DNA of 64,000 nt from NCBI RefSeq assembly GCF_000568815.1, contig NZ_CP007201.1, positions 1,178,001-1,242,000 on the forward strand, given 5' to 3'. Position numbers and translations under genes: made by a program. Under the pieces are notes generated by a model. It did not search any database. It saw only the letters and a program-made list of their open reading frames with translations, and had not been told where the DNA came from. Position 1 is the first letter of the stretch. Each line of letters opens with the position of its first letter. Below, piece by piece: positions 6,610 through 61,586 of this stretch. Source of the stretch: Sulfurospirillum multivorans DSM 12446 (GTDB lineage Bacteria > Campylobacterota > Campylobacteria > Campylobacterales > Sulfurospirillaceae).

Positions 6610-6613
6610 GATG

Positions 6614-6991: not shown

Positions 6992-7124
6992 GATAAATCC
7001 TTTGATGGGAATGGATTAGTAACTCAAAAAATCCTTGCTGAAAAGTACCCACAACATGGAAGCGGGGGCAAACCACATTGTGAGTATCTAAGTAAGGGTT
7101 TTTAAAGGTACACGCTCCTCTCTT

Positions 7125-7140
7125 TGCAAGAGGTGTTCCG
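7125..7140 (-). promoter_or_regulatory. Candidate sigma-54 promoter of fdxN-nifX-flavodiiron operon
   Basis: On the minus strand CGGAACACCTCTTGCA places GG exactly ten bases from GC, matching the -24/-12 pattern GG-N10-GC of sigma-54 promoters. It lies about 135 bases before the fdxN ATG. Two further sites with the same GGAACAC core occur at 19686 and 22439, and rpoN is encoded at 25377. Confidence 0.65.
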
Positions 7141-7190
7141 TAAGAATTCTTTTGCATAAATTTTTAACAAGCATTAAAAGCCTCTTATAC

Positions 7191-7204
7191 GGAATGAATT
7201 GTGC
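7191..7204 (+). promoter_or_regulatory. Candidate sigma-54 promoter of nifE-nifN
   Basis: GGAATGAATTGTGC on the plus strand has GG-N10-GC spacing (GG 7191-7192, GC 7203-7204). It ends only 12 bases before the assigned nifE ATG at 7217, so the transcript would be nearly leaderless if both calls are right. Confidence 0.45.
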
Positions 7205-7216
7205 AAATTCATTACT

Positions 7217-8563
7217 ATGGTAAACAAAAAACTGATCAAGGATTTGTTAAACGAGAGTGCTTGTTCTCATAACAAAACCAAAAAAAGTAGCTGTGATAAA
7301 CCGAAACCTGGAGCGACGAGCGGAGGGTGTGCGTTTGAGGGAGCGCAAATATCACTTTTTCCTTATGCGGATGCTGTGCATTTGGTGCATGGTCCCGACA
7401 CTTGTCTTGGCGCTTCGTGGGAGACTCGAGCTACGCTTACAAGCTATGAAGGTGAAAACAACACGCCACTAGGCTATTGCACCAATGTTACGACTCAAGA
7501 CATCATTTTTGGTGGTGACAAAAAGCTAGCTGAGGCGTTGGCGTACATCGTGGAGCACAAAAAACCTAAGGCGATTTTTGTCTATGAAACCTGTGTGACA
7601 GCGATGATCGGGGATAATATTGACTTTACATGTAAAACCGCAGAAGAGCTGTTTCACATCCCCATCGTGCCTGTGCATTCACCCGGTTTTGTTGGCAGTA
7701 AAAACTTAGGCTCTCGTCTTGCAGGGGAAGCGGTTTTAGACGCGCTGGTGGGTACGCGTGAGCCTGAAAGCATTCATCCGTTTGGCATTAACTTGATCGG
7801 TGATTATAACGTCACGGGCGATATGTGGCAGTACAAGCCTATACTTGAACGTATCGGAATCAAAGTCATCTCTTCTCTCTCAGGAGATGGCAGACTCGAG
7901 CAGATACAAATGGCGCACACCGCAAAGCTCAATGTCATCGTCTGTGCGAAATCCTTAGTCACCTTGTGCCGAAAAATGCAAGAGCGCTACAATATCCCTT
8001 ATGTCAGCGTTTCCTTTTACGGTAAACGCGACACGTCCAATGCGATTCGCTCTATCGTGAACGCGTTTGGTGACGCAGAACTTATCACCAAAGCGGAAGT
8101 AATTATCGCCGAAGAAGAGGCGAAATTGGCGGAGCGTTTGAAGCCGTACCATCTGATGCTTAAAGGCAAAAAAGCGATTTTAAACACGGGTGGCAACAAA
8201 TCATGGTCGATCGCTTCAGCCCTTCAAGACATTGGCATCGAAGTGGTCGCAACCTGTGTGCAAAAAGCAACCGAAGAAGATGTGGCGATAGCGAGTGAAT
8301 ATGTGCCCATCGTCTTTAAAAACCCAGGTGTTGAACAGCCCAAACTCATTGATGAACACAAGGTTGACATCTTGCTTGCAGGTGGGCGCAGTCTTTACAC
8401 GGCGATTAAAAAGCGCATTGCCTTTGTCGATGTCAATCAAGAGAAAAAAGTGAGTTACGGTGCGTACGGTGGGCTTGAAAATTTGGCGAGTGATGTCTGT
8501 TCGGCTCTTGCAAATCCTGTCTTTAAACTGGTTGGAAAGGCTGCACCATGGGAGCTAGTATGA
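7217..8563 (+). CDS. nifE: Nitrogenase FeMo-cofactor scaffold protein NifE
   Basis: 448 residues, typical NifE length. NifE pairs with NifN as an alpha2beta2 scaffold on which the NifB product is matured to FeMo-co with Mo and homocitrate. Visible family features: GGCAFEGA near residue 36 (cluster Cys), GPDTCLGASW (~59-68), YCTNVTTQDIIFGG, ETCVTAMIGDN, and the C-terminal segment GAYGGLENLA. ATG 7217 starts the conserved protein; a TTG at 7199 lies inside the putative promoter. No clear Shine-Dalgarno is seen. nifN follows with a 4-base ATGA overlap. nifDK are absent from the window, so this is NifE rather than a misread NifD. Confidence 0.94.
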   Translation: MVNKKLIKDLLNESACSHNKTKKSSCDKPKPGATSGGCAFEGAQISLFPYADAVHLVHGPDTCLGASWETRATLTSYEGENNTPLGYCTNVTTQDIIFGGDKKLAEALAYIVEHKKPKAIFVYETCVTAMIGDNIDFTCKTAEELFHIPIVPVHSPGFVGSKNLGSRLAGEAVLDALVGTREPESIHPFGINLIGDYNVTGDMWQYKPILERIGIKVISSLSGDGRLEQIQMAHTAKLNVIVCAKSLVTLCRKMQERYNIPYVSVSFYGKRDTSNAIRSIVNAFGDAELITKAEVIIAEEEAKLAERLKPYHLMLKGKKAILNTGGNKSWSIASALQDIGIEVVATCVQKATEEDVAIASEYVPIVFKNPGVEQPKLIDEHKVDILLAGGRSLYTAIKKRIAFVDVNQEKKVSYGAYGGLENLASDVCSALANPVFKLVGKAAPWELV

Positions 8564-9840
8564 ATTTAAAAGAGCTCAGAACAATGAGCATGAAACCTTT
8601 ACATGTAAACCCTCTCAAGCTCTCTCAGCCGATGGGCGCGACACTGGCATTTTTAGGCATTAAAAACTGTATGCCTTTGATGCACGGGGCGCAAGGGTGC
8701 GCTTCCTTTACGAAAGTGCTTTTTACGAGACACTTTAACGATCCTATCGCCATTCAAACCACCGCGGTCAATGACATTACCGCCGTCATTGATGGCGGCG
8801 ATAAAGGCATCTCCGAAGCGGTTGAAAACATTACTAAAAAAGTAACGCCCGATCTGGTCGGGCTTTTTACAACGGGTATGACCGAGACTAAAGGCGATGA
8901 CATCAAGGGTGCGACACTGCTTTTAAAAGAGAAGCAAAAAATGGTCTATGTGCATACGCCTGATTTTGAAGGAGGGCTGGAGAGCGGTTGGAGTTTGAGT
9001 GTGCAAAACATCATTACGCAACTCATAGAGCCAACCACGCAAGTCAAAAAAGATAAAGTGCTCCTCATCCCCAATGTCAATTTTAGCCCCATCGAAGTCG
9101 AAAAACTCAAAGAAGCGTTAGAGCTTTTGGACTTGGTGGTCTTCGCACTCCCCGATCTCAGCGATTCGCTCGATGGTCACTTGGGCGTCAAACAAGGAGC
9201 ACTCAGCAGCGGTGGCATTAGTGTTTCCGACATCGAAAAACTAGGTGATGCGGGGGCTGTGATCACCATTGGGCGGTCGGTTAAAAAATGTGGCGAGCTC
9301 TTTTATGAGAAATTTCCTCAAAGCACGCATTTGCATTTTGATAGTCTCATCGGTTTAGAAGCAAGTGATGATTTCTATGCCAAAGTGTTTGAATTTTTAC
9401 AGTGCAAAAGTGTACCAAGCGTCGTCAAACGATGGCGTGCTCGCTTGCAAGATGTACTCTTAGATACCCATTTTACCCTTGGAAAAGCGAAGATTTTGAT
9501 CGCCGATGAACCCGATAGTGCGTATGCAATGTCTAAAGCGCTTAGAGAAGCAGGAAGTACGTGTGAAGCGTACATCGCGCAACGCAGTGAGATCCAAGAA
9601 GCCTTTACATGTAAAATGCAAATCGGCGATTTTGAAGAGGTGGAAAAGAGGCTTCCTGAGATGGATATGCTCATCGCCAACTACCACGGTGAACGTTTAG
9701 CCCATAAGCATCACAAAGCGCTTCTCATTCGAGGATTTCCCAATTACGAGCAGGTCGGCATCGGGCTTCGTTATAACATCTTGTATGAAGGCAGTTGCGC
9801 CTTTTTGTGTGAGGTGAACAATCTTTTAGCCCATCATTAA
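8560..9840 (+). CDS. nifN: Nitrogenase FeMo-cofactor scaffold protein NifN
   Basis: 426 residues, the beta-type partner of NifE in the NifEN scaffold complex. Characteristic stretch GIKNCMPLMHGAQGCASF lies near residues 34-51 and includes the cluster Cys; TAVNDITAVIDGG and the C-terminal LLIRGFPNYEQVGIG are family hallmarks. Start 8560 is preferred over an ATG at 8548: it has GGAG at 8551-8554 and overlaps the nifE stop as ATGA, implying translational coupling. Two copies of the TTTACATGTAAA palindrome lie in the coding sequence (near 8597 and 9602), read as L-H-V-N and F-T-C-K. Confidence 0.93.
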   Translation: MNLKELRTMSMKPLHVNPLKLSQPMGATLAFLGIKNCMPLMHGAQGCASFTKVLFTRHFNDPIAIQTTAVNDITAVIDGGDKGISEAVENITKKVTPDLVGLFTTGMTETKGDDIKGATLLLKEKQKMVYVHTPDFEGGLESGWSLSVQNIITQLIEPTTQVKKDKVLLIPNVNFSPIEVEKLKEALELLDLVVFALPDLSDSLDGHLGVKQGALSSGGISVSDIEKLGDAGAVITIGRSVKKCGELFYEKFPQSTHLHFDSLIGLEASDDFYAKVFEFLQCKSVPSVVKRWRARLQDVLLDTHFTLGKAKILIADEPDSAYAMSKALREAGSTCEAYIAQRSEIQEAFTCKMQIGDFEEVEKRLPEMDMLIANYHGERLAHKHHKALLIRGFPNYEQVGIGLRYNILYEGSCAFLCEVNNLLAHH

Positions 9841-14444: not shown

Positions 14445-15536
14445 CTAATGAACTTTTTGCATTAAGTTTTTCATAATTTTTGGATAATCATGCAACAGCG
14501 TTTCGATCTGGGCAATGTCAAATGTATCGATTTTGTCCAGTAATGTTTGGCTGTACTGTTGAAGATACGTGATGGTGTGACGTGTTGATAGCTCTCGTAA
14601 AACTGAAGCAAATTGGGCAATAATCTTAAGATCATTTTGAGCAATAGCGTCTTGATATAAAGGTTCTATATCTAATTCGTGTAAGAAATTTTTTAAGTCC
14701 GCTGCATTGTCTACTTCAATGACTTCTTCGTGGGGTGCTTCTGATAATTTTGCTGTATATTTGAGAAATTTTGCAAGCTCATTAAAGAGTTCATTTTTGG
14801 AAACAGGTTTGCGCAAATACCCATCAAATCGTTGCTCTTTTATCTTCGTCAACTCCTCTAACATGATCGAAGCGGTCAAGGCAATAATAGGAATATCACA
14901 AGACTCTTTGATAATTCGTGTGGCACTGTACCCATCTAAGATAGGCATTCTAATGTCCATTAAAATTAAATCGATGGGATAAGTCTTGGTTTTTTCAATC
15001 GCCTCTTGCCCGTTGACGGCTTCGATAACCTCAATCAACGTCGAGTCAAAACTCTCTTTGATGAGTTGTCGGTTTTGGTCAACATCATCTGCCACTAAAA
15101 TCATTGCTTTTTCAAAATTGATTGCAGTGTGGTTTAGGGCAAGGTCACTTTGAACCGTCTCATTTTGCATAGACGCAATATCTAAATGGTTGAGTTTTAG
15201 AATAAAGACAGAGCCTTTTCCCACATCACTTTGCACGTCTAGTGAACCACCCATAAGCGTTGCTAATTTTTTGCTTATCGCCAGCCCCAGTCCGGTGCCT
15301 CCATATTTTCTTGCATCTTGATTCTCTTGCTGTTCAAACATATTAAAAATCTTACTTTGAGCCTCTTTTGGTATGCCAATGCCACTGTCTTGAACGCTTA
15401 TGACAATGTCTATTTTGCTGAGATGCTTATGGACACGATGCACGTCTACGATGACTTTGATAAATCCAACATCTGTAAATTTTAGAGCATTTCCGATGAG
15501 ATTCGTGATGATTTCTTTCACTCTAAAGGCATCCAC
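14445..15536 (-). pseudogene. Hybrid histidine kinase, C-terminal part after a frameshift
   Basis: Continuation of the kinase encoded at 15559-17556, in a different frame. It holds the HATPase_c domain (NLIGNALKFT, DSGIGIP, GGTGLGLAISK), a receiver domain (acceptor Asp in LILMDIRMP, Lys in YLRKPV) and an all-alpha tail of ~90 residues without an obvious Hpt histidine. The reading frame of this part extends upstream to about 15626: the sequence before the first ATG codes for A-T-F-A-L-H-A-E-Q-K-G-L-N-L-E-L-Q in register. It therefore lacks its own true start and is probably not made alone. Confidence 0.8.
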
Positions 15537-15558
15537 AAAGATGACTTCAGGTATTTTT

Positions 15559-17556
15559 TTATCGATCTGTAACTCTAAATTTAGACCTTTTTGTTCCGCG
15601 TGTAAAGCAAACGTTGCAATACTCTCTTAATAATTTTTTGATAGGGGTTGCTTTGGTGATAATCTCAAATTTTCCTGATTCAATTTTTGAGAGGTCTAAA
15701 ATATCATTGATTAACATGAGTAAACTCTCACCTGAACTTCGTATGGTTTTGATAAATGATTTTAGTTTTTTATCTTCTATCTTTTCATCCAACAGCTCGG
15801 CAAAGCCTAAGATGGAGTTCATTGGAGTCCGTATTTCATGGCTCATGTTGGATAAAAAGTTCGATTTTGCATTGGTAGCGCTTTGCGCTTCTTGGTTTGC
15901 AATAAGAAGCTTTTTATTTAATTCTTGTAATGCTAATTCGACTTCTCTTCTTTTTTCTATCTCAGAAGAGAGCTTACGATTCCAAAATAAAGTCCCCAGC
16001 ATAATCACTAAAAATGCCCCAGCAATCTGAAAAACGATGGTATAGTCAATGCTTTTATCGTATTTGACTTGTACCCATTGATTGTAGATACTATTTCTCT
16101 CGTCTTCAGAAATGGAGTCCAGCGCTTTATTAAGAACTGCTATGCCTTCACTATCCCAATCATTGCGCAGTGCCATATGAAATTTTGATTCGTACTTGCT
16201 AATGCCTGAAACTTTTAGATTGGAAAATCCATTTTTTTGGATGTAGCTACTTGCCACAGGTAACAGATCTATATAAGCATACGCGTCGCCTTCAACAACG
16301 GCTTTAAACGCATCCACAATATCTTTGACGACAACAGCATGTATCTGTGGATGTTCTTTTTGGATGAGTTCACTTTGTGCATAACTTTCCACTAAAGCAA
16401 CTTTTTTCCCGTATAACTCTTTAATATCCGTTATAAATTTAACATCATTTTGGGTAATAAAGACTTGTGGCATGGTGATATACGGTTGTGTAAAATTGAG
16501 AATGTGATCTCTTTGAGGTGTGCGTGTCAAACACGTATACATGTCAGCCTCATGTGCATTGACTTTTTCAACACTTTTTGACCATACGCTTGTGGGGATT
16601 CTCTTAAAATTTATTCCCGTTTTTTGACTGATGAGTGTTAAATAGCTACTCGCAATACCTGCGTGCGTGTTTCCATCTTTCGTGAGATATTCTAAAGGCT
16701 CAAAATGGTTATCGATAACATAGCGTATCTCTTTATGGGTATCGATCCACGCTTGTTCTGTTGGTGTAAAGTTTAAAAGTTCTTTGGATGTTTCTAAGGC
16801 TTTACTCCATTTAGCGTTGATAGCTTGAGCTTCTTTGGATGATATCTCTTTGAGTGTTTTTTGAATGATATTAAAAAGGAGTGCATTGTCTTTGTCTATA
16901 GCAAGGCTGATGGAGGTTTGAAATTCTTCCAGTTTAGCGACAATTTTGAGGTTATTGAGTAAGTATTGATTCATAATATACGTACTCACGGCGAGATTGC
17001 CCACATACGCATCTACTTTTCCCAATGAAAGCATCTCCAGAGAATCTTCATTCGATGTGGAGGGAAGAAGTTTTATGGAAGGATATTTTTCTTGGAGCCA
17101 TTCATGAATATAAGAGCCTTTGTTGATAGAGACGACTTTGCCTTTTAAATCATCCAGTGTTTTGATATCGTTCGTGTTGGTATTGGCAATAATCACCATA
17201 GGAACATTGAGATAGGGTTCGGTAAAAGAGAGGAATTTATCGCGCTCTTCAGTTTTAACGGCGCAGGTGAGCCCATCGTATTTTTTATCTTTCATATTTT
17301 GGATGGTTTCAGCCCAAATAGCAGGATAGATTTTAAACTGCAAGCCACTTTTTTGAGCAATCAGTTGGATATAGTCATAAGAAAGCCCTGTTGGAACGCC
17401 ATTTTTATCGACAAAATCAAAAGGTGGCCATTTATAATCCGAACCCAATGTGACGACAGAGTTGTTTTTAATGTAGGCTTGCTCTTCGGGTGTAAAAATA
17501 AGTGTAGCGTAGAGTGTTGAAAAGGTGATGAACAAGATGGCTAAAAAGCGCATCAT
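15559..17556 (-). pseudogene. Hybrid histidine kinase, N-terminal part (frameshifted)
   Basis: The part before the frameshift has a signal peptide, two tandem periplasmic SBP_bac_3 domains (residues ~20-255 and ~270-490), one membrane helix (~495-518), a coiled linker and a HisKA domain with the H box SHEIRTPMN. It then loses its frame near 15622-15627, where the minus strand has AGAGAG; one more AG (or loss of one base) would restore an open frame into the HATPase and receiver domains at 14445-15536. The out-of-frame tail ends in VTDR. This BvgS/EvgS-like kinase begins a few bases after the REC-HD-GYP gene, its likely operon partner, which is itself disrupted by an IS. Sequencing error cannot be excluded. 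Confidence 0.82.
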
Positions 17557-17560
17557 CGCT

Positions 17561-18212
17561 TTAAGACTTTTCTTCGATAATTTTTTTAAAGCTTTCTAGA
17601 TTATGGCTAAAAAGCTCTATGAGATAGGGGTCAAACTGGCTCCCTTTGCGCTCAATGATATACTTAGCCGCGGTATCAAAATCCCATGATTGTTTGTACA
17701 CTCGCACATGGGTTAGCGCATCTAAAACATCGGCAATCGCTACAATACGCGCATAGATATGAATTTCTTCTGCTTTAAGTCCTTGAGGGTAACCTGAACC
17801 ATCCCATTTTTCATGATGTTGATAAGCGATGATGTCGCCTGCTTTCATCAGTCTTCGGCTGGATTTTTTAAGCAGATTATGTGCATTGGTCGTGTGTGCT
17901 TGCATCGCATGAAATTCTTCATCGGTGAGTTTGCCATGTTTATGGAGTATCTCATAAGGAATCGTAATCTTGCCTATATCATGCAAAGGCGCTGCAAAAA
18001 AGATATCGTCTATCTCCATGTCAGACAAACTATGATGCAGTGTCGCTAATAACTTTGAGATATCGGCAACTCTTTTAATATGCTTTCCTGTTTCATCGGA
18101 GGTATCTTCCATCAGTTCTGTCAGTACGTATATGATCTCTTTTTGGCTGTTTTCAAGCTCTGATAAAAATCTTTTTTCACTTTGAAGAATCTTTACATGT
18201 AAATCTAAATTA
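17561..18212 (-). pseudogene. REC-HD-GYP protein, C-terminal part cut off by IS982-type insertion
   Basis: The HD-GYP domain of a response regulator: HIKRVADISKLLA, LHDIGKI (metal HD), HHEKWDGSGYPQG (the GYP motif) and IVAIADVLDALT. The upstream boundary is the insertion sequence at 18213. Removing the IS and one 7-bp copy of TAAATTA joins this part in frame to the receiver domain at 19145-19555 (reading V-L-Q-Q-N-N-L-D-L-H-V-K). An ATG inside the IS end could start a fusion reading frame to 18262 that adds ~16 IS-derived residues, so a stand-alone HD-GYP protein might still be made. The palindrome TTTACATGTAAA lies at 18192-18203. Confidence 0.85.
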
Positions 18213-19144
18213 ACCCAAACTGCTAGTTGAGAAGATGGTTTGAAAGTTGCTTTAAACTCCATAAAAAGCCGTGGGAGGCGAGATTATGGAGCGAGATATT
18301 ATAACCGTTTATTGTTTAATTGATGAGTATTTGAAGGTATCAGGGATAAAAGATGATGTTAGAGCTAAGATTAGTAATGCAGAAGTGCTGCTTATCGGGT
18401 ATATGGCAGTGAATGATTTTAATGGCAACTATTTCAAAGCACATCAGTATGTTAAGATGATGCACTTGGTGAAAGAGATTGACTACACGAGATTTTTGCG
18501 CCGCTTAGTAAAAATAAATGACGTGTTGTCCACACTTTTTTTGTTTTTAGGCTCATTGTTTCAGCGATTAAACGGTGCAAAGATTTACTCTGTTGATTCT
18601 TTTCCTGTTGAATTGTGCCAAATCACAAGGCAAAGCAGAGTCAGATTGTGGAGTGATCCATCTTTGAAGGGGTATAATGCATCCAAAGGAAGATTCTTTT
18701 ATGGGCTTAAAGTCCATATGGTAGTCACAGCCGATAAAGAGCCTGTAATGGTACATATCTCAGAAGGCTCCATACACGATGTTACGGCGGGGTATCAATT
18801 TATGCACTATCTACCCCAAAAATCAATCACGATTGGAGATAAAGGGTATGTTTCATCAAAGTTAGAAGCTTTTTTAAAACAGTTTGAGATTGTACTTTCA
18901 CCCATTGGGCGTAACAACATGCAACAAGAAAACAAAGAAGAGTATTTTACCAAGCGTAGAATTAGAAAAGGTGTTGAAACTGCCTTTTCTATGATCACTG
19001 CTAAGTTTGGTAAAGTGATTAAGGCTACAACCATTGGTGGCTTTTTAACAAAGCTTAGACTTTTCATCACTGCGTATGCTATCAACTGCTTTTTGAAGCT
19101 TAGTGATGACAAAAAAGCTCTTCTGTTTAACTAGCAGTTTGGGT
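18213..19144 (+). mobile_element. IS982-family insertion sequence
   Basis: A 932-bp element with near-perfect terminal inverted repeats (ACCCAAACTGCTAGTT at the left end and its complement at the right). It is flanked by a 7-bp direct repeat TAAATTA (18206-18212 and 19145-19151). It encodes one transposase and lacks the TTTACATGTAAA palindrome common in the host DNA. It splits a REC-HD-GYP gene. The intact ends and target duplication indicate a recent insertion. Confidence 0.93.
18286..19134 (+). CDS. IS982-family transposase
   Basis: 282 residues, a DDE transposase. The likely catalytic triad is Asp104 (YSVDSFPVELC), Asp185 (ITIGDKGYVS) and Glu231 (RKGVETAFSM). The order and the SVDSFP and GDKGY motifs fit IS982. 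ATG 18286 follows GGGAGG at 18273-18278. Both inverted repeats are present and the gene is full length with no frameshift, so the element may be active. It faces opposite to the gene it interrupts. Confidence 0.92.
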   Translation: MERDIITVYCLIDEYLKVSGIKDDVRAKISNAEVLLIGYMAVNDFNGNYFKAHQYVKMMHLVKEIDYTRFLRRLVKINDVLSTLFLFLGSLFQRLNGAKIYSVDSFPVELCQITRQSRVRLWSDPSLKGYNASKGRFFYGLKVHMVVTADKEPVMVHISEGSIHDVTAGYQFMHYLPQKSITIGDKGYVSSKLEAFLKQFEIVLSPIGRNNMQQENKEEYFTKRRIRKGVETAFSMITAKFGKVIKATTIGGFLTKLRLFITAYAINCFLKLSDDKKALLFN

Positions 19145-19555
19145 TAAATTATTTTGTTGCAATACTTTTTTAGCTCGGTAAAGTTCGATGTGCGTTTTAA
19201 CACGAGAGATCAGTTCATCTGCATAAAAAGGCTTTGTAATATAATCAACGGCACCGACTTTAAAGCCTTTTGAAAGAGAGTCCAAGTCGGCTTTTGCTGT
19301 TAAAAAGATGACGGGAATATCGTGTGTTTGAGGATCTTTTTTTAGATGTTCGCAGACTTCAAAACCATTCATTTGTGGCATCATAATATCGAGTAAAATA
19401 ATGTCAAAAGATTTTGTCTTGATAATTTCTAACGCTTGTTTGCCATTGAGCGCGAAAGAAAAATTGTAGTTATTCTCTTTTAAGATATTCATTGCCACCT
19501 TGATGTTATCACTAACATCGTCGACAATTAAAACATTATAATCAGCACTCATCAT
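19127..19555 (-). pseudogene. REC-HD-GYP protein, N-terminal receiver part
   Basis: The receiver domain of the split regulator: acidic pocket in IVDDVSDN, acceptor Asp in IILLDIMMPQMNG, and Lys in YITKPFYADE. The natural gene continues into the HD-GYP domain at 18212; here the last residues (T-Q-T-A-S and the stop) are read from the IS end. ATG at 19553-19555 has AGGATTA upstream. The truncated product is still a complete receiver and might be made, but it has lost its phosphodiesterase output. Confidence 0.85.
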
Positions 19556-19924
19556 TAATCCTTAATCATTCGTAGGATCATAACGCAAAGAATTACGGTT
19601 CAAATTCTAGCACAAATTTTTATAAGTTAAAATTACTGGCAAAATCCCCCTTCATAGCGTCCTAAAATAATCTTTGAAACAACTGTTTTCCTACGGAACA
19701 CTTCTTGTATAGTGTTTAAAAAAATGCCTTTTTTGAGTTAAATTGAGTATACGCTCTAAATCTTCTTAATCATTAGACTTCTTGCAAAACGTATTTACAA
19801 GAAGAAAAGCACCAAAGGTGCGCGGGCTTTTCGCCAAGGAAAACCTAGTGTTAACGTAGTTTTTAGAGCTTTGCTTTAAAAACGTATCAAGAGCTCTGCA
19901 AGAACTCTATCAAAAAGGATTATT
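19556..19924 (+). other. 369-bp intergenic region with promoter-like repeat and structured leader
   Basis: This gap separates the divergent receiver fragment and the Cache-CheW gene. It holds a sigma-54-like site at 19686-19709. Between 19775 and 19905 it has several inverted repeats: CTTCTTG/CAAGAAG around a 13-base loop, GCACC-AAA-GGTGC, GTTTTTA/TAAAAAC and AGAGCTCT/AGAACTCT. No known riboswitch class was recognised and no small gene is supported. Confidence 0.5.
19686..19709 (+). promoter_or_regulatory. Sigma-54-like promoter, copy 1 of a 24-bp repeat
   Basis: CTACGGAACACTTCTTGTA has GG and GT spaced ten bases apart, close to GG-N10-GC. The same 24 bases occur again at 22439-22462 before nifX, and a close variant with TTGCA lies before fdxN. 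It is about 215 bases upstream of the Cache-CheW gene. Confidence 0.5.
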
Positions 19925-22429
19925 ATGTCTGAGCAAAACAATACCACACGTTACAATGCCTACATCCCCGAAGTTGTTGCTTACCAAAAATCACTCGATC
20001 AGCTCTCCGAGAGATGGAATCTTCTCTCATTATTAGGTCAGATGAGTAATATCGGTATGGACATCTCAGAAACCAGACAAGCGTTTAGCAATCTCTCTGA
20101 ACAGCTTTTACAACGACTCAGCGAAGAGACGGTCAAAAAACTTTCCATAGAGCTTGGGGCTAAAGCGCAAGTGGCGATTGATATTTTAATCCGCAACCTC
20201 TTTGAACGTACCGCAGACATAGGCTTTTTGGCGATGGACATGATCATTTGTGATTTTGCAAAGCAAAGCAATGAAGAGCAAAAAAATGCACTGCCTGAGC
20301 TTCAAAACCGTTTTCACGAGTACATCGAAAAGTACAGTGTTTACAATGATGTGCTGTTGTTTAATCTTGAAGGTGTCTTGATCGCTTCCACCAAAGATGA
20401 AAAAATTGGCAAAAAGATCGACAGTGCTTTTATCTACGAGGCGATGCACACGTCCCAAGAGTATGTAGAGAGTTTTGGTATCTATCCTAGCATCAGCTCA
20501 AAAGAGAGTCTGCTTTACAGTTACCGTGTGTGTGATGAGAGTGGTACACCGCTTGCCGTGCTTTGCCTTGTGTTTAAGTTTCAAGATGAGATGCAGGTGA
20601 TTATCTCCAACTTGATTGAAAATGAGATATGGGCAGATATTTTACTCTTAGATGAAAAAGATCGTACCATTTACAGCAGTAACCCTTTTCATTATGCTCT
20701 GGGCGCTCCTCAAAAAACAGCCTTAAAACGTTTTGATATTATCCCTTTTTCAGGCAGTGAATATGTCGCTAAAACCCAAGCCACCAAAGGGTACCAAGGC
20801 TTTTACGGTCTGGGATGGAAAGGGCATGCGCTTATGCCACTATCTTTTGCTTTTGGGCAACAACAAGCCCACGTTCCTTTTACCGAAGAGCAGATCAAGA
20901 TCATCAAACACTCTTCACTCTTTTCAGAAGAGTTTACCAGCATTCCTACCAAAGCCGAAGCGATCCAAAGACGTCTTGATATGACGATTTGGAATGGTAA
21001 TGTACAAATCGCCAACCAAAAAAGTGGGGATAACTCCTTTTCAAAATCACTCCTCAATGAGATCTCACGCACAGGGGCACAAACCAAAAAAACCTTTGAA
21101 GAGTCCATCGGCAATCTCAATTGGACGGTTGTTGCTTCGTTTATCAACGGGGCTGCGTTTAAAGCAAAACTGGCGATTGATATTATGGATCGAAACTTGT
21201 ATGAGCGTGCCAATGACTGCAGATGGTGGGCTCTAAGTCCCGTATTCATTAAAGCATTTAGCGCTAAATACAAAGATTTTTCAACGATTCGCAAAGAGTT
21301 TGGGCATGAAATGACCGAAGTGCTCAGTGCCATCAATGCGCTCTACACCGTTTACAGCAATCTCTTTTTGTTCGACAATCAAGGCAGTGTCATTGCGGTG
21401 AGCCAAGAAAAATATGCCCATCTCATCGGCAAACGCATAGGTGCTCATTACATCGCACAAACCTTGGCGCTGAAAAGTTCCAAAGAGTATGTGGTGAGTC
21501 CGTTTGAGAAAACAGAACTTTACGATGGAAAACATACTTACATCTACAGTGCGCCTATTTTTATCGAAGGGGCGAAAGAGGCGCAAGGTGGCATTGGTAT
21601 TGTGTTTGATGCTGAGACACAGTTTGAAGCGATGCTAACCGATGTTGTAGGCGCCGATGAACGCGCTTTCGCGCTCTTTATCGAGACGAAAACCAATAAT
21701 GTGATTGCTTCTACAAACCCTGACATTGGCATGGGTGAGCGATGTGTTTTTTGTGATTCGTCTGAAAATATGGTGCTCATTAAGGATGATTATTACATTG
21801 TGGGCAAGGCGAAGTCTCAGGGGTATCGTGAGTATAAATGCAGCGATGGCTACAGCAATGATGTCACTGCCATTGTCTGCATTAAAGTTGCTAACAAAGA
21901 AGCCTGCGTTGAGCCTGTTGTCAAAAATGGCAAAAAACAGTACCTCTACCCAAAAGTGGGTGCGTCTGAGAAGACAGTTGAGCTCTCAACGTTTTGGATG
22001 AATGGCACGCTCTTTGCCATCGAGAGCCAATACATTTACGCCGCACTTGAAGGACAAGATGTCACCCAAGTGATCGGTTGCGATGAAATTTATGTGGGAA
22101 TGATTACGTGGAATAACAAAACGATCCCCGTAGCATCGCTCGCAAAATACTTTCACCATACGTGTGCGTACAACAAAGAGCTCCATCACATTATTGTGCT
22201 TAAAGGCAGTGAAGACAAACCCTTTGGCTTGGTGATCGACATGGTGCAAGACAGCCCCGAAGTACCACAGCGTTGTGTGGATGAAACTTCTCAGGCGATG
22301 ATGGGGCACCATACGCTTACCAAAGCGATTGTCAAATCAGACGTGGGACAAGAGAAGGCTGAAATGCTCTCGATTCTTGATCCTTTGAAGATCGAACGTT
22401 ACTTGATTGTAGAGAAAAACGCGCTTTAG
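19925..22429 (+). CDS. Soluble tandem Cache-like sensor with C-terminal CheW domain, nif-linked
   Basis: 834 residues with no membrane helix or signal peptide. Two similar modules follow each other. Each begins with a helical segment (NLFERTADIGF near residue 97 and NLYERANDC near 424) and continues into a Cache/PAS-like sensor (VLLFNLEGVLIAS, LFLFDNQGSVIAVS). A Cys-containing segment (CVFC, CSDGYSNDVTAIVC) precedes a CheW-like domain (~ residue 685 to end; VGMITWNNKTIPVASLAKYF). CheW domains couple receptors to CheA, so this may be a cytoplasmic sensor that docks to a chemotaxis array. It heads nif block B and shares its upstream 24-bp promoter repeat with nifX. The ligand is unknown. Confidence 0.7.
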   Translation: MSEQNNTTRYNAYIPEVVAYQKSLDQLSERWNLLSLLGQMSNIGMDISETRQAFSNLSEQLLQRLSEETVKKLSIELGAKAQVAIDILIRNLFERTADIGFLAMDMIICDFAKQSNEEQKNALPELQNRFHEYIEKYSVYNDVLLFNLEGVLIASTKDEKIGKKIDSAFIYEAMHTSQEYVESFGIYPSISSKESLLYSYRVCDESGTPLAVLCLVFKFQDEMQVIISNLIENEIWADILLLDEKDRTIYSSNPFHYALGAPQKTALKRFDIIPFSGSEYVAKTQATKGYQGFYGLGWKGHALMPLSFAFGQQQAHVPFTEEQIKIIKHSSLFSEEFTSIPTKAEAIQRRLDMTIWNGNVQIANQKSGDNSFSKSLLNEISRTGAQTKKTFEESIGNLNWTVVASFINGAAFKAKLAIDIMDRNLYERANDCRWWALSPVFIKAFSAKYKDFSTIRKEFGHEMTEVLSAINALYTVYSNLFLFDNQGSVIAVSQEKYAHLIGKRIGAHYIAQTLALKSSKEYVVSPFEKTELYDGKHTYIYSAPIFIEGAKEAQGGIGIVFDAETQFEAMLTDVVGADERAFALFIETKTNNVIASTNPDIGMGERCVFCDSSENMVLIKDDYYIVGKAKSQGYREYKCSDGYSNDVTAIVCIKVANKEACVEPVVKNGKKQYLYPKVGASEKTVELSTFWMNGTLFAIESQYIYAALEGQDVTQVIGCDEIYVGMITWNNKTIPVASLAKYFHHTCAYNKELHHIIVLKGSEDKPFGLVIDMVQDSPEVPQRCVDETSQAMMGHHTLTKAIVKSDVGQEKAEMLSILDPLKIERYLIVEKNAL

Positions 22430-22438
22430 CATCGGCAT

Positions 22439-22462
22439 TTTTCCTACGGAACACTTCTTGTA
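22439..22462 (+). promoter_or_regulatory. Sigma-54-like promoter of nifX operon, copy 2 of a 24-bp repeat
   Basis: Identical over 24 bp to 19686-19709. GG (22448-22449) and GT (22460-22461) are spaced ten bases apart. The site ends 37 bases before the nifX ATG and lies just after the stop of the Cache-CheW gene, so it would give nifX its own start point. Confidence 0.55.
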
Positions 22463-22499
22463 AAGGAATGAACAACGTTTAGGATAGGAGGATACAAAG

Positions 22500-22856
22500 A
22501 TGGTCAAGGTTGCGTTTTTTACAAACGATCTCAAGAATATTGATGCCCATTTTGGCTCTGGAGAGCAATTTGCCGTGTATGACGTGAATGCTGAGGGGTT
22601 TGCACTCTCAGGAGTCATCCCAACAGGTGAAGAGCGAACCGAGGGTCGCGTTGAGCTGTTACAGAATGAACATGTTGACATTATGTACTGTGTCGAGATT
22701 GGACCGGCTGCTGCTGCTAAAGTTGTCAATAGCAAGATATTCCCTATCAAATACAAAGAGGTTGTGAGCATTGAAACAGAACTTTCAAAGCTTCAAACAA
22801 TGATTGCAACCAATCCTCCACCGTTTATCAAAAAAATCTTAGAAGCAAGAGGATAA
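22500..22856 (+). CDS. nifX: NifX, FeMo-cofactor carrier
   Basis: 118 residues of the NifX family. It starts VKVAFFTNDLKNIDAHFGSGEQF, typical of NifX (cofactor-binding fold), with a YCVEIGPAAAAKV loop and the C-terminal NPPPFIKKIL. NifX binds NifB-co and VK-cluster intermediates during FeMo-co synthesis on NifEN. TAGGAGG precedes the ATG. It is followed after 4 bases by the DUF269 gene, the classic nifX-orf pair, which makes this the main NifX; a second paralogue is at 6226-6609. Confidence 0.92.
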   Translation: MVKVAFFTNDLKNIDAHFGSGEQFAVYDVNAEGFALSGVIPTGEERTEGRVELLQNEHVDIMYCVEIGPAAAAKVVNSKIFPIKYKEVVSIETELSKLQTMIATNPPPFIKKILEARG

Positions 22857-22860
22857 CGCT

Positions 22861-23292
22861 ATGAATGAGCTTGAAAAGTTGTTCATCGAAACACTCACTT
22901 CGCAAATTAGAGCACTTGATCAGTTTGGTACATGGGCGAAAAAGAGCGATGAAGAGGTGTTGAGTGATAAATACATTAAAACCAAAGAGCAACTTAAAAA
23001 CGTTCCTATCATTGCAGATATTGATGAGATGCAGATCAAAGATATTCGTCTGATTTTTCAATCGATTGCGTTGGCGTTTGAGCTCAAACTTGGCATTATG
23101 TGCTCCGTTGTTATGGAGATGAGTCACGAAGGTTTTGGACGCGCTGTGGTCTTGGCAGAAAAAATTGTTATCACCAACAAGTTTTTCAAAGATGCGCATC
23201 GTTACAGTTTTAGAACCTATGATGATCTCATTAAAGAGGGTGGCAAAATGTTAAAAGATGCCATCGAAATTTACGAAACTCATAAAAAATAA
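22861..23292 (+). CDS. NifX-associated nitrogen fixation protein (DUF269)
   Basis: 143 residues of the DUF269 family, nearly always encoded right after nifX in diazotrophs. The family pattern is visible: FIETLTSQIRALDQFGTW near the start and IADIDEMQIKDIRLIF in the middle. The biochemical role is not established. ATG 22861 lies 4 bases after the nifX stop and the next gene begins 12 bases after its end, so it belongs to the nifX-flavodoxin operon. Confidence 0.9.
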   Translation: MNELEKLFIETLTSQIRALDQFGTWAKKSDEEVLSDKYIKTKEQLKNVPIIADIDEMQIKDIRLIFQSIALAFELKLGIMCSVVMEMSHEGFGRAVVLAEKIVITNKFFKDAHRYSFRTYDDLIKEGGKMLKDAIEIYETHKK

Positions 23293-23304: not shown

Positions 23305-23820
23305 ATGGCAAAGGTTGGTATATTTTACGCAAGTGCGGGCGGCAATACAACATTGGTAGCAGAGGCTTTAAAAGAGGCGTATGAGCTTGAAGATGATGAT
23401 TGTATTTTGATGGAAGATGATTTTGACAGTGTCGAGCAATTTGACAACTACGATGTGCTTTTCGTTGGCTCTTCAACATGGGGACAAGGCGATGTGCATT
23501 TTAGTTGGGTTGACCCACTCTTTGAAATCACTTCTGATAACATCAGTTTTGCAGGTAAAAAAGTTGCGTTTTTTGGCGCAGGTGACAGTAAAACACACGG
23601 TGAACATTTTTGTTCAGCTCTTGGTAAATTCAATCAAATTTTTACCAAAGCAGGTGCAAAGGTCATCGGTTTTGTGGATAAAGAAGGCTATAACTACACA
23701 GCTTCTTTGGCAGAATCAGGCGATAAACTGTGTGGTTTAGCCATTGATAACATCAACGAAAAAGAGAAAACAAGTGAGCGCATTGAGAACTGGATCGAGC
23801 AGTTACAAGGCGAGATATAA
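23305..23820 (+). CDS. nifF: Nif-linked flavodoxin
   Basis: 171-residue long-chain flavodoxin. The phosphate-binding loop is GIFYASAGGNTTLVAEA (in place of the usual T-G-N-T); FMN-ring segments are GSSTWGQGDVHFSW and FGAGDSKTHGEHFC. The ILMEDDFDSVEQFDNYDVLFVG pattern follows the NifF type. NifF gives electrons to nitrogenase Fe protein. The position between DUF269 and nifW supports that role; a housekeeping flavodoxin is the alternative. Confidence 0.88.
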   Translation: MAKVGIFYASAGGNTTLVAEALKEAYELEDDDCILMEDDFDSVEQFDNYDVLFVGSSTWGQGDVHFSWVDPLFEITSDNISFAGKKVAFFGAGDSKTHGEHFCSALGKFNQIFTKAGAKVIGFVDKEGYNYTASLAESGDKLCGLAIDNINEKEKTSERIENWIEQLQGEI

Positions 23821-23875: not shown

Positions 23876-24208
23876 ATGAGAACGCTTGAGCAATATTATG
23901 AACTGAAAGATGCAGAAGATTTTTTTGAATTTTTTGGTGTTGACTACGACAAACACATTGTGGAAGTCAAGCGTTTTCATATTATGAAAGAGTATGGAAC
24001 CCTCATTAAAAAAGGGTTTGAAAACTTTAACGGCGATGAAAAATACTTGATGGACTTTTTAAAGTTTGCTTTGATTCGTGTCTATATGGACTATAAACAT
24101 GGACATGCCCCAAGTGCTGCTGAGGTGTGGGGAATGCTTGAAGATGGTAAAGCCAAAGGCTGTTTGGCATGTACCACTGCAACGGAAGGAGGAAACTGTG
24201 CCTGCTAG
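23876..24208 (+). CDS. nifW: NifW, nitrogenase stabilising/protective protein
   Basis: 110 residues. The N-terminal half contains the NifW pattern: DAEDFFEFFGVDYD, then VEVKRFHIMKEYG. NifW helps protect or assemble the MoFe protein. The C-terminus carries a short cysteine-rich tail (CLACTTATEGGNCAC), an unusual extension with four Cys that is absent from the NifW I know. The stop overlaps the nifZ GTG start by 11 bp. Confidence 0.85.
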   Translation: MRTLEQYYELKDAEDFFEFFGVDYDKHIVEVKRFHIMKEYGTLIKKGFENFNGDEKYLMDFLKFALIRVYMDYKHGHAPSAAEVWGMLEDGKAKGCLACTTATEGGNCAC

Positions 24209-24560
24209 CGAAGAAGTTGTTTTACACAACAACGTGATGGCAAAACTTTCAGGTAAAGACGAAGCGAAAGCGAAGTTTTTTCTCGGTCAAAAGGTCAAAC
24301 TTTTGGAAGACGTCAAAAACGATGGTACCTATCCGTATCTCAAAATTGGCGATGTGATGATTAAAAAAGGCTCAGTCGGTTACATTCGTGGTATGGGTGA
24401 GTTTTTACAAGTCATTCGTGTGTATGAAGTCCATTTTTTAGATGCTGAAGCGGTTATTGAAGTCATTGGGTGTAGGGAACATGAGCTTGAAGCGATGGAA
24501 CCTTACCGTGATCTTGATGCGGAAGAGACAGAATGGATGATAGCTCATTATAAGCAATAA
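24198..24560 (+). CDS. nifZ: NifZ, MoFe-protein maturation factor
   Basis: 120 residues from a GTG start. The frame is open further upstream (to 24078), but GTG 24198 follows GGAGG at 24188-24192 with ideal spacing and overlaps the nifW stop by 11 bp, so it is the likely start. The NifZ domain is visible as GQKVKLLEDVKNDGTYPYLKIGD, then KKGSVGYIRGMGEFLQ and VYEVHFLDAEAVIEVIGCREHEL. NifZ acts in P-cluster formation of the MoFe protein. nifW and nifZ are translationally coupled. Confidence 0.88.
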   Translation: MPASEEVVLHNNVMAKLSGKDEAKAKFFLGQKVKLLEDVKNDGTYPYLKIGDVMIKKGSVGYIRGMGEFLQVIRVYEVHFLDAEAVIEVIGCREHELEAMEPYRDLDAEETEWMIAHYKQ

Positions 24561-24946: not shown

Positions 24947-25243
24947 ATGACAACAAGAGTAGAAATTATCAATGATTTTTTAGCAATCAATGTAAAACCG
25001 GGCGCAACCATTCAAGATGTCGTCGAAGCGAGTGGTAGTGCACTCCCTTTCGGCTGTCGCGATGGTCAATGCGGCACATGTGTGGTTGAAATCGTACAAG
25101 GTATGGAGTTCTTATCAGCTAAAAATGAGAAAGAATTCAAAGTTCTTAAAGAAGTATGTGCGGGCACATGTTCAGAGAATGCACGCCTTGCCTGTCAGAT
25201 GAAAATCGACAAACCAAACGGCGTTGTTCGTATTAAATACTAA
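24947..25243 (+). CDS. [2Fe-2S] ferredoxin, nif-associated
   Basis: 98-residue plant-type [2Fe-2S] ferredoxin. Cluster ligands are in GCRDGQCGTC (three Cys) and the final LACQM. The N-terminal VEIINDFLAINVKPGATIQD and the C-terminal VVRIKY complete the beta-grasp fold. Two further Cys lie in VCAGTC. Similar small ferredoxins occur in nif clusters as FdxB- or FdxD-like carriers; which one this is cannot be told from sequence alone. It closes the nifX-to-ferredoxin run before rpoN. Confidence 0.85.
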   Translation: MTTRVEIINDFLAINVKPGATIQDVVEASGSALPFGCRDGQCGTCVVEIVQGMEFLSAKNEKEFKVLKEVCAGTCSENARLACQMKIDKPNGVVRIKY

Positions 25244-25376: not shown

Positions 25377-26603
25377 ATGAGAAGTATCAACCTAGAATTC
25401 AAACAGAAGCAGAGTTTAAACCTCTCTTTGAAGCTTTGGCTCCCACTGTTACAACTACCTCTTCAAGAGTTAAGTACGCACCTAGAAACATTGTCGTACG
25501 AAAACCCTTTTTTAGAAGTAAAACGCCCTTTTGAGCAAAACCTAGGTTCAAGCCATGGGATCGTTGAAGAGTTGGTACTTGGAAGCGAATCGTTGCATGA
25601 AAAAATCATCGAACAAATCGTTCCACCTCTTTTTCCAACACCTATTTCTCAAAAAGTAGCGCATGAAATTCTCTGTGATATCAACGAAGAGGGCTATTTT
25701 GATGGCGATATTGAAGCCATTGCCGTGACCTGTGGTGTTTATACCGAGTATGTTGAGCGCATTCGCCAACGCTTCTCCAAGTTAGAGCCTTATGGTATCG
25801 GCTCACGTGAGAGCCACGAATCGTTTGTCTTTCAACTTGATGCGCTCAGCGATGACATCGACGATGAACTCTATAACCTAGTGCTTAAGATGATCGACCA
25901 GATGGCAAAGGTCGATAAATTCTCCAGACATGGACGTTTTGAAGAGGCCAAAGCGATCATCAAAAAATTTGCCAATCCTCCTGCAATTGAGTATCAAGCA
26001 ACACCAAAACAGATTATTCCCGATTTTTACGTCGAGGTGGATGATGACATCAGGCTGCGCATTAACAACGACTATTATCCTGACATTTTGATTACCGATC
26101 CTTTTTCAAGCAAGAGTGAAAACATCAAAGAGAAGCTCAAAGAGGCGCGCGACATCGTCAATCTTTTGGAACTTCGCAAAACAACGCTTTACAAAATTGT
26201 GCTTTTAGTCGTTGAGCGTCAACTCTCCTTTTTTGTGGGGGGCGAGCTAAAACCTCTGAATATGAGCACGCTTGCCGAAGAGCTCTCGTTTGCAGAATCG
26301 ACCATTTCACGGGCGATTTCAAACAAATACATTGAATCCAAGCAGGGTATTTTCCCACTTAAATCGTTTTTCACCAATGCTGTCGCGACCAAAGAGCTCT
26401 CTTCGTCTGAGATCAAGAATTTTATCAATCAACAGATCGAATACGAAGATAAAAGTGAACCACTGACAGATGATGATCTTTTAGAGCGCATCGAGAAGCG
26501 CTTTAACATCAAGATGGTTAGACGCACCATCACCAAATATCGCAAATTGATGAACGTTGCTTCATCCAAAGAGCGCAAAAAAATCTATAAGGTACAAGCA
26601 TGA
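25377..26603 (+). CDS. rpoN: RNA polymerase sigma-54 factor
   Basis: 408 residues, the size seen in Campylobacterota. The N-terminal Gln/Leu-rich activator region (FKQKQSLNLSLKLW, LPLQELSTHLE) is followed by the core-binding region, the helix-turn-helix (LAEELSFAESTISRAISNKY) and the RpoN box VRRTITKYRKLM near the C-terminus. It reads GG-N10-GC promoters such as the candidates at 7125, 7191, 19686 and 22439. Most epsilonproteobacteria need RpoN for flagella; its place between nif ferredoxins and nifQ suggests either a nif-dedicated second copy or the sole copy in a nif context. It overlaps nifQ by four bases (ATGA). Confidence 0.93.
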   Translation: MRSINLEFKQKQSLNLSLKLWLPLLQLPLQELSTHLETLSYENPFLEVKRPFEQNLGSSHGIVEELVLGSESLHEKIIEQIVPPLFPTPISQKVAHEILCDINEEGYFDGDIEAIAVTCGVYTEYVERIRQRFSKLEPYGIGSRESHESFVFQLDALSDDIDDELYNLVLKMIDQMAKVDKFSRHGRFEEAKAIIKKFANPPAIEYQATPKQIIPDFYVEVDDDIRLRINNDYYPDILITDPFSSKSENIKEKLKEARDIVNLLELRKTTLYKIVLLVVERQLSFFVGGELKPLNMSTLAEELSFAESTISRAISNKYIESKQGIFPLKSFFTNAVATKELSSSEIKNFINQQIEYEDKSEPLTDDDLLERIEKRFNIKMVRRTITKYRKLMNVASSKERKKIYKVQA

Positions 26604-26962
26604 CCACAGCCACAGAAGAGAGCCTAACAAGCCGCTACAGTCAACTAGAGATGACAAAGCTTGAACGCGAAGTGATGGTTTTTTTGCAAGGCTATGCCAA
26701 AAATCGCTACTCAAAATACGTCATCGCCCCACACATCGCAGCCATGTCACTGAAAATGAACCACCTCTACGAAGCGATGGGGTTTAAAAATCGCGTGCAG
26801 ATGGGCAAATACATGAAATGCCACTTCCCTGAACTAGCTGGGCTCAAACCTGTCGATAAATTGTGGAAGAAATTCATCTACGATTCCATCAACCGAGTCG
26901 CACCTGCATGCTTTACATGTAAAGATCAAAGCAACTGCTTTGCCTGTCAATTAGCAGGATAG
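26600..26962 (+). CDS. nifQ: NifQ, molybdenum donor for FeMo-cofactor
   Basis: 120 residues, shorter than typical NifQ (~170-200). The C-terminal half carries the family signature: MGFKNRVQMGKYMKCHFPEL, then LWKKFIYDSI and a four-Cys motif (Cys104, 107, 113, 116) that holds the Mo-Fe-S cluster. NifQ passes molybdenum to NifEN/NifH. The ATGA overlap with rpoN implies translational coupling. A palindrome copy at 26920 encodes part of the Cys motif (F-T-C-K). The assignment rests on the pattern and context. Confidence 0.8.
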   Translation: MTTATEESLTSRYSQLEMTKLEREVMVFLQGYAKNRYSKYVIAPHIAAMSLKMNHLYEAMGFKNRVQMGKYMKCHFPELAGLKPVDKLWKKFIYDSINRVAPACFTCKDQSNCFACQLAG

Positions 26963-27538: not shown

Positions 27539-27578
27539 ACGTACGCTATTTGACTTATAACGTACGCCATTGTATAAT
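27539..27578 (+). promoter_or_regulatory. Consensus promoter with repeated operator of a toxin-antitoxin pair
   Basis: TTGACT (27550-27555) and TATAAT (27573-27578) are 17 bp apart. ACGTACGC occurs twice, at 27539-27546 and 27560-27567, 21 bp (two helical turns) apart, one copy on each side of the -35 element. That arrangement fits an autorepressing antitoxin. Confidence 0.7.
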
Positions 27579-27605
27579 GCTCTTACTTTAATGAAAGGAG
27601 CTAAG

Positions 27606-27833
27606 ATGGTCGTAACACCCTCAAAACTTCGTGAAAATTTGTACAATCTTTTAGACAGTGTCATCGAAAAAGGTGAGCTTCTTGAGATTTCGCGCAAAGG
27701 TAAATTGTTGCGCATTGTACCCGAACAGCGTCCTTCTCGCCTCGATAAAATTGTTGCAAAAAACATCACCACCACAAGCGATGATGAACTCATCAACACA
27801 CCATGGGAGAGCGAATGGAAGCCCTTTATTTAG
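27606..27833 (+). CDS. Phd/YefM-type antitoxin
   Basis: 75 residues. The N-terminal VTPSKLRENLYNLLDSVIEKGELLEISRKG pattern (in part) fits Phd/YefM antitoxins: a small DNA-binding fold that dimerises, then a flexible C-terminal toxin-neutralising tail (DDELINTPWESEW). ATG 27606 follows GGAG at 27597-27600. It overlaps the PIN toxin gene by 19 bp. It should repress its own promoter through the ACGTACGC repeats. Confidence 0.82.
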   Translation: MVVTPSKLRENLYNLLDSVIEKGELLEISRKGKLLRIVPEQRPSRLDKIVAKNITTTSDDELINTPWESEWKPFI

Positions 27834-28198
27834 ACACGCACATTGTCGTATGGCTTAGGCAAAAGGAGCTTCAAAAATTCTCACCCAAAGCACTTGAAGC
27901 CATCGAGCAAGCAGGGCAACTTTTCATCTCTCCTATGGTCGAACTTGAACTAAAATTTTTATATGAAATTGGACGAATTTCAGAGACTTCCTATAATATT
28001 TTAGGAGATTTAGGCGCTATGATAGGACTTAAAATAGACGATCATAGTTTTAGCGAAGTCATCCAAAAAGCAATGCTCATCGACTGGACACGTGACCCGT
28101 TTGATCGCATTATCGTCGCACATGCCATGAGTCAGGAACGTAAACTTTTAACGAAAGACGAGAAGATTTTGAACTATTTTCACGATGCGGTTTGGTAG
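27815..28198 (+). CDS. PIN-domain toxin (VapC-like)
   Basis: 127 residues. The acidic residues expected for a PIN ribonuclease are visible: Asp7 in LYLDTHIVVW, Glu in MVELELKFL, and Asp in DWTRDPFDRIIVAHA. These toxins cleave tRNA or rRNA. ATG 27815 follows GGGAG at 27805-27809 and overlaps the antitoxin, as in Phd-VapC pairs. A start at 27803 (MGERMEAL) is possible but has weaker signals. Confidence 0.86.
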   Translation: MEALYLDTHIVVWLRQKELQKFSPKALEAIEQAGQLFISPMVELELKFLYEIGRISETSYNILGDLGAMIGLKIDDHSFSEVIQKAMLIDWTRDPFDRIIVAHAMSQERKLLTKDEKILNYFHDAVW

Positions 28199-29621: not shown

Positions 29622-29933
29622 ATGACAGTTAAGTATGCTCCTGATGAGCTTTTGTCTATTACGGACTTTACTAAAAAGATTGCAGGTGTTTTAAAGGGTA
29701 TCAAAGACCAATCTATGGATAAAATTGGGATTTTGAAAAACAACAAACTTGAAGCGGTTGTGATCTCCACCGATGAATATGAGAGACTCAAATCACTTGA
29801 AGAGCTTTTTGAAACACTTGAACACAAAGAAATCTACGATGTCATTCAATCACGCCAAAATACACCACTATCGTCTTATGTGTCATTTGAAGATATGGCT
29901 CGTAAATTTAACATCGATACCAAAAAACTTTAA
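29622..29933 (+). CDS. Phd/RelB-like antitoxin
   Basis: 103 residues. A prevent-host-death-like core (SITDFTKKIAGVLKGI, KIGILKNNKLEAVVISTDEYERLKSLEEL) is followed by a long acidic/polar tail (residues ~65-103) that should wrap the toxin. ATG 29622 follows AAGG. The toxin gene begins 3 bases after its stop. Autoregulation by the TTAACATGTTAA operator is likely. Confidence 0.8.
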   Translation: MTVKYAPDELLSITDFTKKIAGVLKGIKDQSMDKIGILKNNKLEAVVISTDEYERLKSLEELFETLEHKEIYDVIQSRQNTPLSSYVSFEDMARKFNIDTKKL

Positions 29934-29936
29934 CGC

Positions 29937-30236
29937 ATGTATGCCATTAACAACCATCCTTTGGTAGAGGAAGATTTAAAAGCACTTGACCACTCATTTG
30001 TATTGCTTGTCTTTAAAAAACTCAAGCAACTTCAAAATGCTCCACAACAAGGAGAGCTTTTAGGCAATAAGCACAACATGGATTTAAGTGGTTACCGCAA
30101 AGTTTATGTTGCTAAGAAAAAAGTGCGTATTGTTTATCGAATTATCAATGATGAATTGGTTATTTATGTTGTTGCAATTGGAAAAAGAGAAGACATGGAA
30201 GTCTATCAAGAAGCAACACAGAGGCTAAAATCGTAA
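29937..30236 (+). CDS. RelE/ParE-family toxin
   Basis: 99 residues of the RelE/ParE fold: NHPLVEEDLKALDHSF at the start, DLSGYRKVYVAKKKVRIVYRI in the middle and the conserved VVAIGKREDMEVY at the end. Such toxins cleave mRNA on the ribosome or block gyrase. It starts 3 bases after the antitoxin stop and both are AT-rich. The exact subgroup cannot be set. Confidence 0.85.
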   Translation: MYAINNHPLVEEDLKALDHSFVLLVFKKLKQLQNAPQQGELLGNKHNMDLSGYRKVYVAKKKVRIVYRIINDELVIYVVAIGKREDMEVYQEATQRLKS

Positions 30237-61558: not shown

Positions 61559-61586
61559 AGGTTGAACGGCAATGTTGCCTTTATCA

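Follow-up and report, generated by a model that had tools for sequence, protein, structure and literature searches.

The window, a stretch of 64,000 nucleotides of the 3,175,729-bp single-contig genome of Sulfurospirillum multivorans DSM 12446, carries a nif operon together with an open reading frame (19925-22429, + strand) for a protein of 834 amino acids in which two dCache modules are followed by a CheW domain. Downstream of this gene, at a distance of 71 bp, lies nifX (22500-22856, +; TIGR02663, E 1e-30, slightly under the cut-off), followed on the same strand by genes for a NifX-associated DUF269 protein (22861-23292; PF03270, E 3.7e-36) and a flavodoxin (23305-23820, profile match), nifW (23876-24208; PF03206, E 3e-16), nifZ (24078-24560 as the listed ORF, with the true start further in; PF04319, E 2.1e-24, residues 65-138), a 2Fe-2S ferredoxin gene (24947-25243; PF00111), rpoN2 for a sigma-54 factor inside the nif operon (25377-26603; TIGR02395 above cut-off) and nifQ (26600-26962; PF04891, E 1.8e-14). 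Behind the operon, two small gene pairs (27570-28198 and 29622-30236) resemble toxin-antitoxin modules as judged from their translations only.

Upstream, nifE and nifN (7199-9840, +), the neighbours of the gene in its relatives, are parted from it by about 10 kb of inserted genes, encoding a homocysteine methyltransferase, an aldehyde dehydrogenase, MscS, a broken histidine kinase and an HD-GYP protein interrupted by an insertion sequence. The kinase, a hybrid type with SBP_bac_3 sensor domains (14445-17556, -), is split into two ORFs, and as the intact homologue in locus L061 is a single frame of 1041 aa, it has been broken here by a frameshift near 15622-15647. The receiver-HD-GYP gene (17561-19555), one frame of 356 aa in L061, is disrupted by an IS transposase (18271-19134), with its halves flanking the insertion. 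Divergent from nifE, a 4Fe-4S ferredoxin, NifX-like and flavodiiron operon (5022-7146, -) has a nif-type promoter, and a flavodiiron gene also adjoins relatives of the Cache-CheW gene in two other loci (L182 and L231), which suggests oxygen or NO protection within the nif regulon. A second nifD-like cluster, possibly an alternative nitrogenase, is located about 400 kb off (G000:C1 1595902-1602796) and is also present in G002, G006, G014, G016, G019, G021 and G023.

Architecture of the Cache-CheW protein

Module 1 comprises residues 70-306 (20132-20842, +) and is preceded by a long N-terminal helix (48-103), and module 2 comprises residues 394-657 (21104-21895, +), with a helix at 371-435, the family signature DRNLYERANDCRWWAL and the most conserved block of the family. 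The first-pass annotation, made from the letters of the window, had proposed two related sensor modules, and the two are indeed homologous, with 28% identity over 191 aa (E 1e-13, residues 70-305 against 394-658). The Pfam dCache_1 match of the protein stays below the curated cut-off (35.6 vs 45 bits). An AlphaFold2 model built on an alignment of 80 family sequences (mean pLDDT 82, pTM 0.76) predicts a double PAS-like dCache fold with a long N-terminal helix for both modules, a long helix at the module start being the usual dCache stalk. In this predicted model module 1 matches the sensor domain of DctB (Z 17.1, rmsd 2.4, 211 residues), and module 2 resembles KinD (Z 15.7), the tandem CACHE of PscC (Z 14.2) and Tlp3 (Z 13.7). 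The sensor domains of DctB, CitA and KinD bind carboxylates, and since these are the nearest folds, carboxylates may serve as a lead, rather than as ligand evidence, in the search for what the modules could bind.

The sensor domains of DctB, KinD, PscC and Tlp3 share the predicted fold of both modules, but they are extracytoplasmic parts of membrane proteins, whereas the modules here stand in tandem and are predicted to be cytoplasmic. Location outside the cytoplasm between flanking membrane helices is usual, not universal, for dCache domains, and the 834-aa protein departs from it. Its highest 19-residue Kyte-Doolittle mean is only 1.37, too low to predict a membrane segment, in agreement with the earlier claim that a membrane helix is lacking, and the protein is predicted to be soluble. 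The Cys-rich segment pointed out in the same annotation is real (CVFC at residues 607-610, C639 and C652), but its CxxC motif (21743-21754, +) is limited to Sulfurospirillum: it occurs in 6/80 aligned family members, all six of them Sulfurospirillum, and one Sulfurospirillum sequence in that set is without it. Redox sensing via the CxxC was rejected because the motif is not kept outside the genus.

The C-terminal CheW domain (residues 683-828; 21971-22408, +) had also been predicted, and here profile and model agree: Pfam PF01584 matches residues 689-823 (E 6.8e-13, 48.9 bits against a curated cut-off of 23.5), and residues 682-833 fold in the predicted model like TtCheW (2qdl, Z 16.8) and the CheW of the E. 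coli core unit (6s1k_C, Z 16.8). The NLRG motif, whose arginine is typical of array-forming CheWs, is replaced by TWNN (MITWNNKTIPV), so that the protein lacks this mark of a canonical array-forming adaptor; within the same genome both stand-alone CheWs have NLRG and CheV has DLRG. At the interface position, arginine is found in 16/80 family members. Across the 80 aligned members of the wider family CheW is the least conserved part, and within Sulfurospirillum it has 66% invariant columns vs 51-55% for the Cache modules.

The lost arginine and the low conservation of CheW across the family, together with the position of the gene between nifN and nifX and the lack of an adjoining che gene, would fit a reuse of the CheW domain, in which a metabolite sensor has a nif component as its binding partner (NifEN, NifX or a kinase, for instance) and regulates nitrogenase assembly instead of motility. 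We consider this unlikely, as the domain is well kept at the genus level, its predicted fold is like that of an array CheW and the family is also found outside nif clusters.

Pfam returned Cache and CheW matches only. No MCP signalling domain (PF00015) was found in the protein and none of the 38 MCP domains of the genome falls in the gene; the protein also has no Pfam match to a receiver domain, and is thus not of the CheV type, nor to CheR, and is thus not of the CheWS type. AerC binds FAD through PAS domains, and the AerC-type combination of PAS/FAD and an MCP signal domain is likewise not seen in these Pfam results. CheV, like this protein, combines CheW with another signalling domain, which in CheV is a C-terminal receiver, and it has no sensor module. 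Short soluble Cache MCPs of 346 and 341 aa (L246 2668-3705 and L245 2698-3720), from plasmids of Burkholderia stagnalis and Methylobacterium currus, have one Cache that is matched by both modules; they differ in that the Cache is C-terminal and an MCP signal domain at the N-terminus provides the output.

The nif-type promoter and the place of the gene in Sulfurospirillum

A 27-nt repeat stands both before the Cache-CheW gene (19686-19712, +; TTTTCCTACGGAACACTTCTTGTATAG, about 215 bp before the ATG) and before nifX (22439-22465, +), with none expected in shuffles of the window, and its GG-N10-GT/GC spacing (GG-N10-GT before the gene) is that of a sigma-54 promoter of the -24/-12 type. The extended -24 box of this element, TTYYTACGGAACAC, has four exact copies in the whole genome, located before nifH, nifX, the leftward ferredoxin/NifX-like/flavodiiron operon (7125-7146, -) and the Cache-CheW gene, and the three sites with one mismatch are all within coding sequence. 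The nifH copy is kept in further Sulfurospirillum genomes and in a single more distant one, and the element or a near copy of it precedes the Cache-CheW gene in most Sulfurospirillum species that do not have the gene directly after nifN. A window-wide scan with the generic sigma-54 consensus (up to two mismatches) found 37 sites where 39 were expected and is thus uninformative, the real signal being the 27-nt repeat. Since the repeat is kept throughout the genus and stands before nifH and the flavodiiron operon as well as nifX, we rejected the idea that it marks an att site or a site of recombination.

We infer that in Sulfurospirillum the gene is driven by a nif-type sigma-54 promoter, and through this promoter or its place in a nif operon it would, as judged from sequence, belong to the nif regulon. 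The description of the gene as the head of the nif operon therefore stands in part. A nif-type promoter does precede it, but nifX has a promoter of its own, and elsewhere the gene lies right behind nifN; it only seems to be an operon head here because the inserted genes part it from nifN.

The gene was found in 15/24 Sulfurospirillum genomes, in all 15 within the nif cluster and co-directional with nif, and in four of them it starts 17-22 bp behind nifN. The survey of nif loci in the genus thus gave the association that had been anticipated, though 8/23 nif-bearing genomes are without the gene; one further genome has neither nif nor the gene. In other genera of the family to which Sulfurospirillum belongs (L088-L090) and in a Sulfuricurvum-group genome (L236), nifN and nifX are directly adjacent with nothing between them. 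We regard it as very unlikely that the interval between nifN and nifX is simply a hotspot for insertions and the gene a passenger in it that plays no part in nitrogen fixation. Genes for MscS, aldehyde dehydrogenase, histidine kinase, HD-GYP and an IS transposase do gather in the same interval, and the eight nif-bearing genomes without the gene would agree with such a passenger, but MscS and the kinase face opposite to nif, unlike the Cache-CheW gene, which also has either the nif promoter signature or a start close behind nifN, and its nif linkage recurs in other phyla.

The wider family and its association with nif

The genome scan gave at least 569 related loci, and the best 80 of these are from Campylobacterota (S. 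cavolei and S. diekertiae are among the relatives), Beta- and Gammaproteobacteria, Desulfobacterota, Deferribacteres and others; in plasmid records only distant partial relatives were found. Homologues of about 620-675 aa without CheW also exist. One of these tandem-Cache proteins (L231 2922-4817, G414) has its gene next to a flavodiiron gene and 202 bp away from nifQ, which shows that linkage to nif does not require a CheW domain.

Among 397 Campylobacterota genomes, nifD was present in 41/51 carriers of the CheW-fused form vs 35/346 others, and in only 3/25 genomes having just a CheW-less or partial form. In Sulfurimonadaceae, 43/47 carriers and 18/84 non-carriers have nifD (Fisher p 1.5e-15, a value that, like the other co-occurrence p-values, ignores the shared ancestry of the genomes). 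Outside Sulfurospirillum, nifE was found in 39/48 sampled carrier genomes, a sample chosen by similarity to the query protein. In two mutually unrelated genomes (L127 and L133) nifE directly follows the gene, which elsewhere is found near nifK in Gallionella (L150), near nifH in L123 and near NifQ in L129, L131, L134 and L170. On a tree of 105 rows nif linkage switches at least 10 times by a quick method in which gain and loss are indistinguishable, and no single constant partner gene of the whole family was found across the contexts compared. In members outside Campylobacterota, sigma-54-type sites stand upstream of 18/48 family genes vs 24/505 other genes of the same loci (p 2.5e-10), and there is no enrichment of NifA-type sites upstream of the family genes (2/18); these data fit sigma-54 control, with no particular activator implied.

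The family could also be a general sigma-54-dependent sensor for metabolic or energy taxis, frequent in diazotrophs because of a common micro-oxic, motile lifestyle, with the nif link a matter of regulatory convenience and not of purpose. This we regard as possible but rather improbable. It would account for the 10/51 CheW-fused Campylobacterota carriers that are without nifD, and for the sigma-54 sites that occur without NifA-type sites upstream. It would also agree with the gene order in two groups in which, for some of the carrier genomes, the label is a putative group assignment: in the Arcobacteraceae group (f9), nifD is present in 13/23 carriers and missing from 10/23, most carriers have no nif adjacency and in many the gene is in a housekeeping context beside secY/aspS/znuA, and in many Sulfuricurvum members it is beside selO/efflux genes, not nif. 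On the other hand, the promoter signature in Sulfurospirillum is limited to genes of the nif region, and such a sensor would not readily explain why the gene is right behind nifN in four genomes and right before nifE in two unrelated ones.

A proposed chemosensory input made together with nitrogenase

The earlier claim that CheA and receptors are absent nearby was correct: no CheA or intact receptor gene adjoins the Cache-CheW gene, the CheA gene being located at about 269.5 kb of the genome, outside the window, and the nearest MCP signal domain at about 60.1-60.5 kb of the window, in a seemingly broken gene. A Cache-HAMP-MCP receptor gene (59924-62066, -) looks split into two frames near 61570. 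As the genome encodes CheA, CheW and CheV in addition to its 38 MCP domains, an array is available for the CheW domain to join.

Our preferred explanation, to which we give a probability of roughly 55%, is a cytoplasmic protein that is produced along with nitrogenase and serves as a chemosensory input, steering taxis to conditions suiting nitrogen fixation. The gene would be expressed with the nitrogenase genes, from the nif-type promoter or as part of a nifEN operon, and the two dCache modules on their long helices, probably in a dimer, would bind an intracellular small molecule. The signal would then pass through the helices to the CheW domain, which would insert into the chemotaxis array and alter the activity of the CheA kinase, and swimming would be biased toward conditions favourable for nitrogen fixation. 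The nitrogen- or redox-linked cytoplasmic input suggested by the first-pass annotation is retained here in its nitrogen part, through the position, orientation and promoter signature of the gene, its co-occurrence with nif across phyla and its CheW output; the redox hint from the cysteines is not family-wide. Against the preferred explanation would count, at the level of sequence, the missing NLRG arginine, the weak conservation of CheW across the family and the eight nif-bearing Sulfurospirillum genomes without the gene, as well as the 10/23 Arcobacteraceae-group carriers without nifD, the housekeeping context and the lack of enrichment of NifA-type sites.

To our knowledge, very few proteins are known that couple the motility of diazotrophs to nitrogen fixation, AerC being the clearest. 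AerC of Azospirillum brasilense, a soluble chemoreceptor that binds FAD, is required for aerotaxis when the cells fix nitrogen (PMC6406031, PMC8561660, citing Xie et al. 2010), and so illustrates that the importance of a soluble taxis protein can be specific to nitrogen fixation. Both proteins are soluble and tied to nitrogen fixation, AerC by its requirement in aerotaxis, but AerC is a chemoreceptor, whereas the protein described here has Cache modules and a CheW output with no MCP signal domain. A sensory CheW is workable in the light of CheWS of Treponema denticola, a CheW-CheRlike SAM sensor which has been termed the first characterised CheW-fused chemotaxis sensor (PMC10653840). CheWS is likewise a soluble CheW-fused sensor and feeds an intracellular metabolite into the array, but it has one C-terminal CheR-like domain in place of two N-terminal dCache modules and no known nif link. 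Figure S10 of the same paper presents 30 further CheW architectures, and the word Cache is absent from its main text. In the part of the literature covered, which did not extend to that figure, we found no description of a Cache-CheW architecture or of its link to nif. CheW-fused soluble sensors as a kind are thus already known, and what is new is the Cache-CheW architecture and the nif promoter.

Extended to the whole cross-phylum family, the preferred explanation becomes more tentative, and we would put it at below even odds: soluble tandem-dCache CheW proteins, a family so far without a name, may be dedicated taxis sensors of nitrogen fixation, expressed with nitrogenase, which feed an internal carbon, nitrogen or redox metabolite signal into the array via an extra CheW position with no receptor of their own. 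A sensor with a nif promoter, in a family spread across several phyla, offers a gene with which a dedicated taxis input in nitrogen-fixing cells could be tested. If the explanation is true, it would strengthen the case, first raised by CheWS, for CheW as a site of input besides its linker role, and it would mean that dCache domains operate inside the cell.
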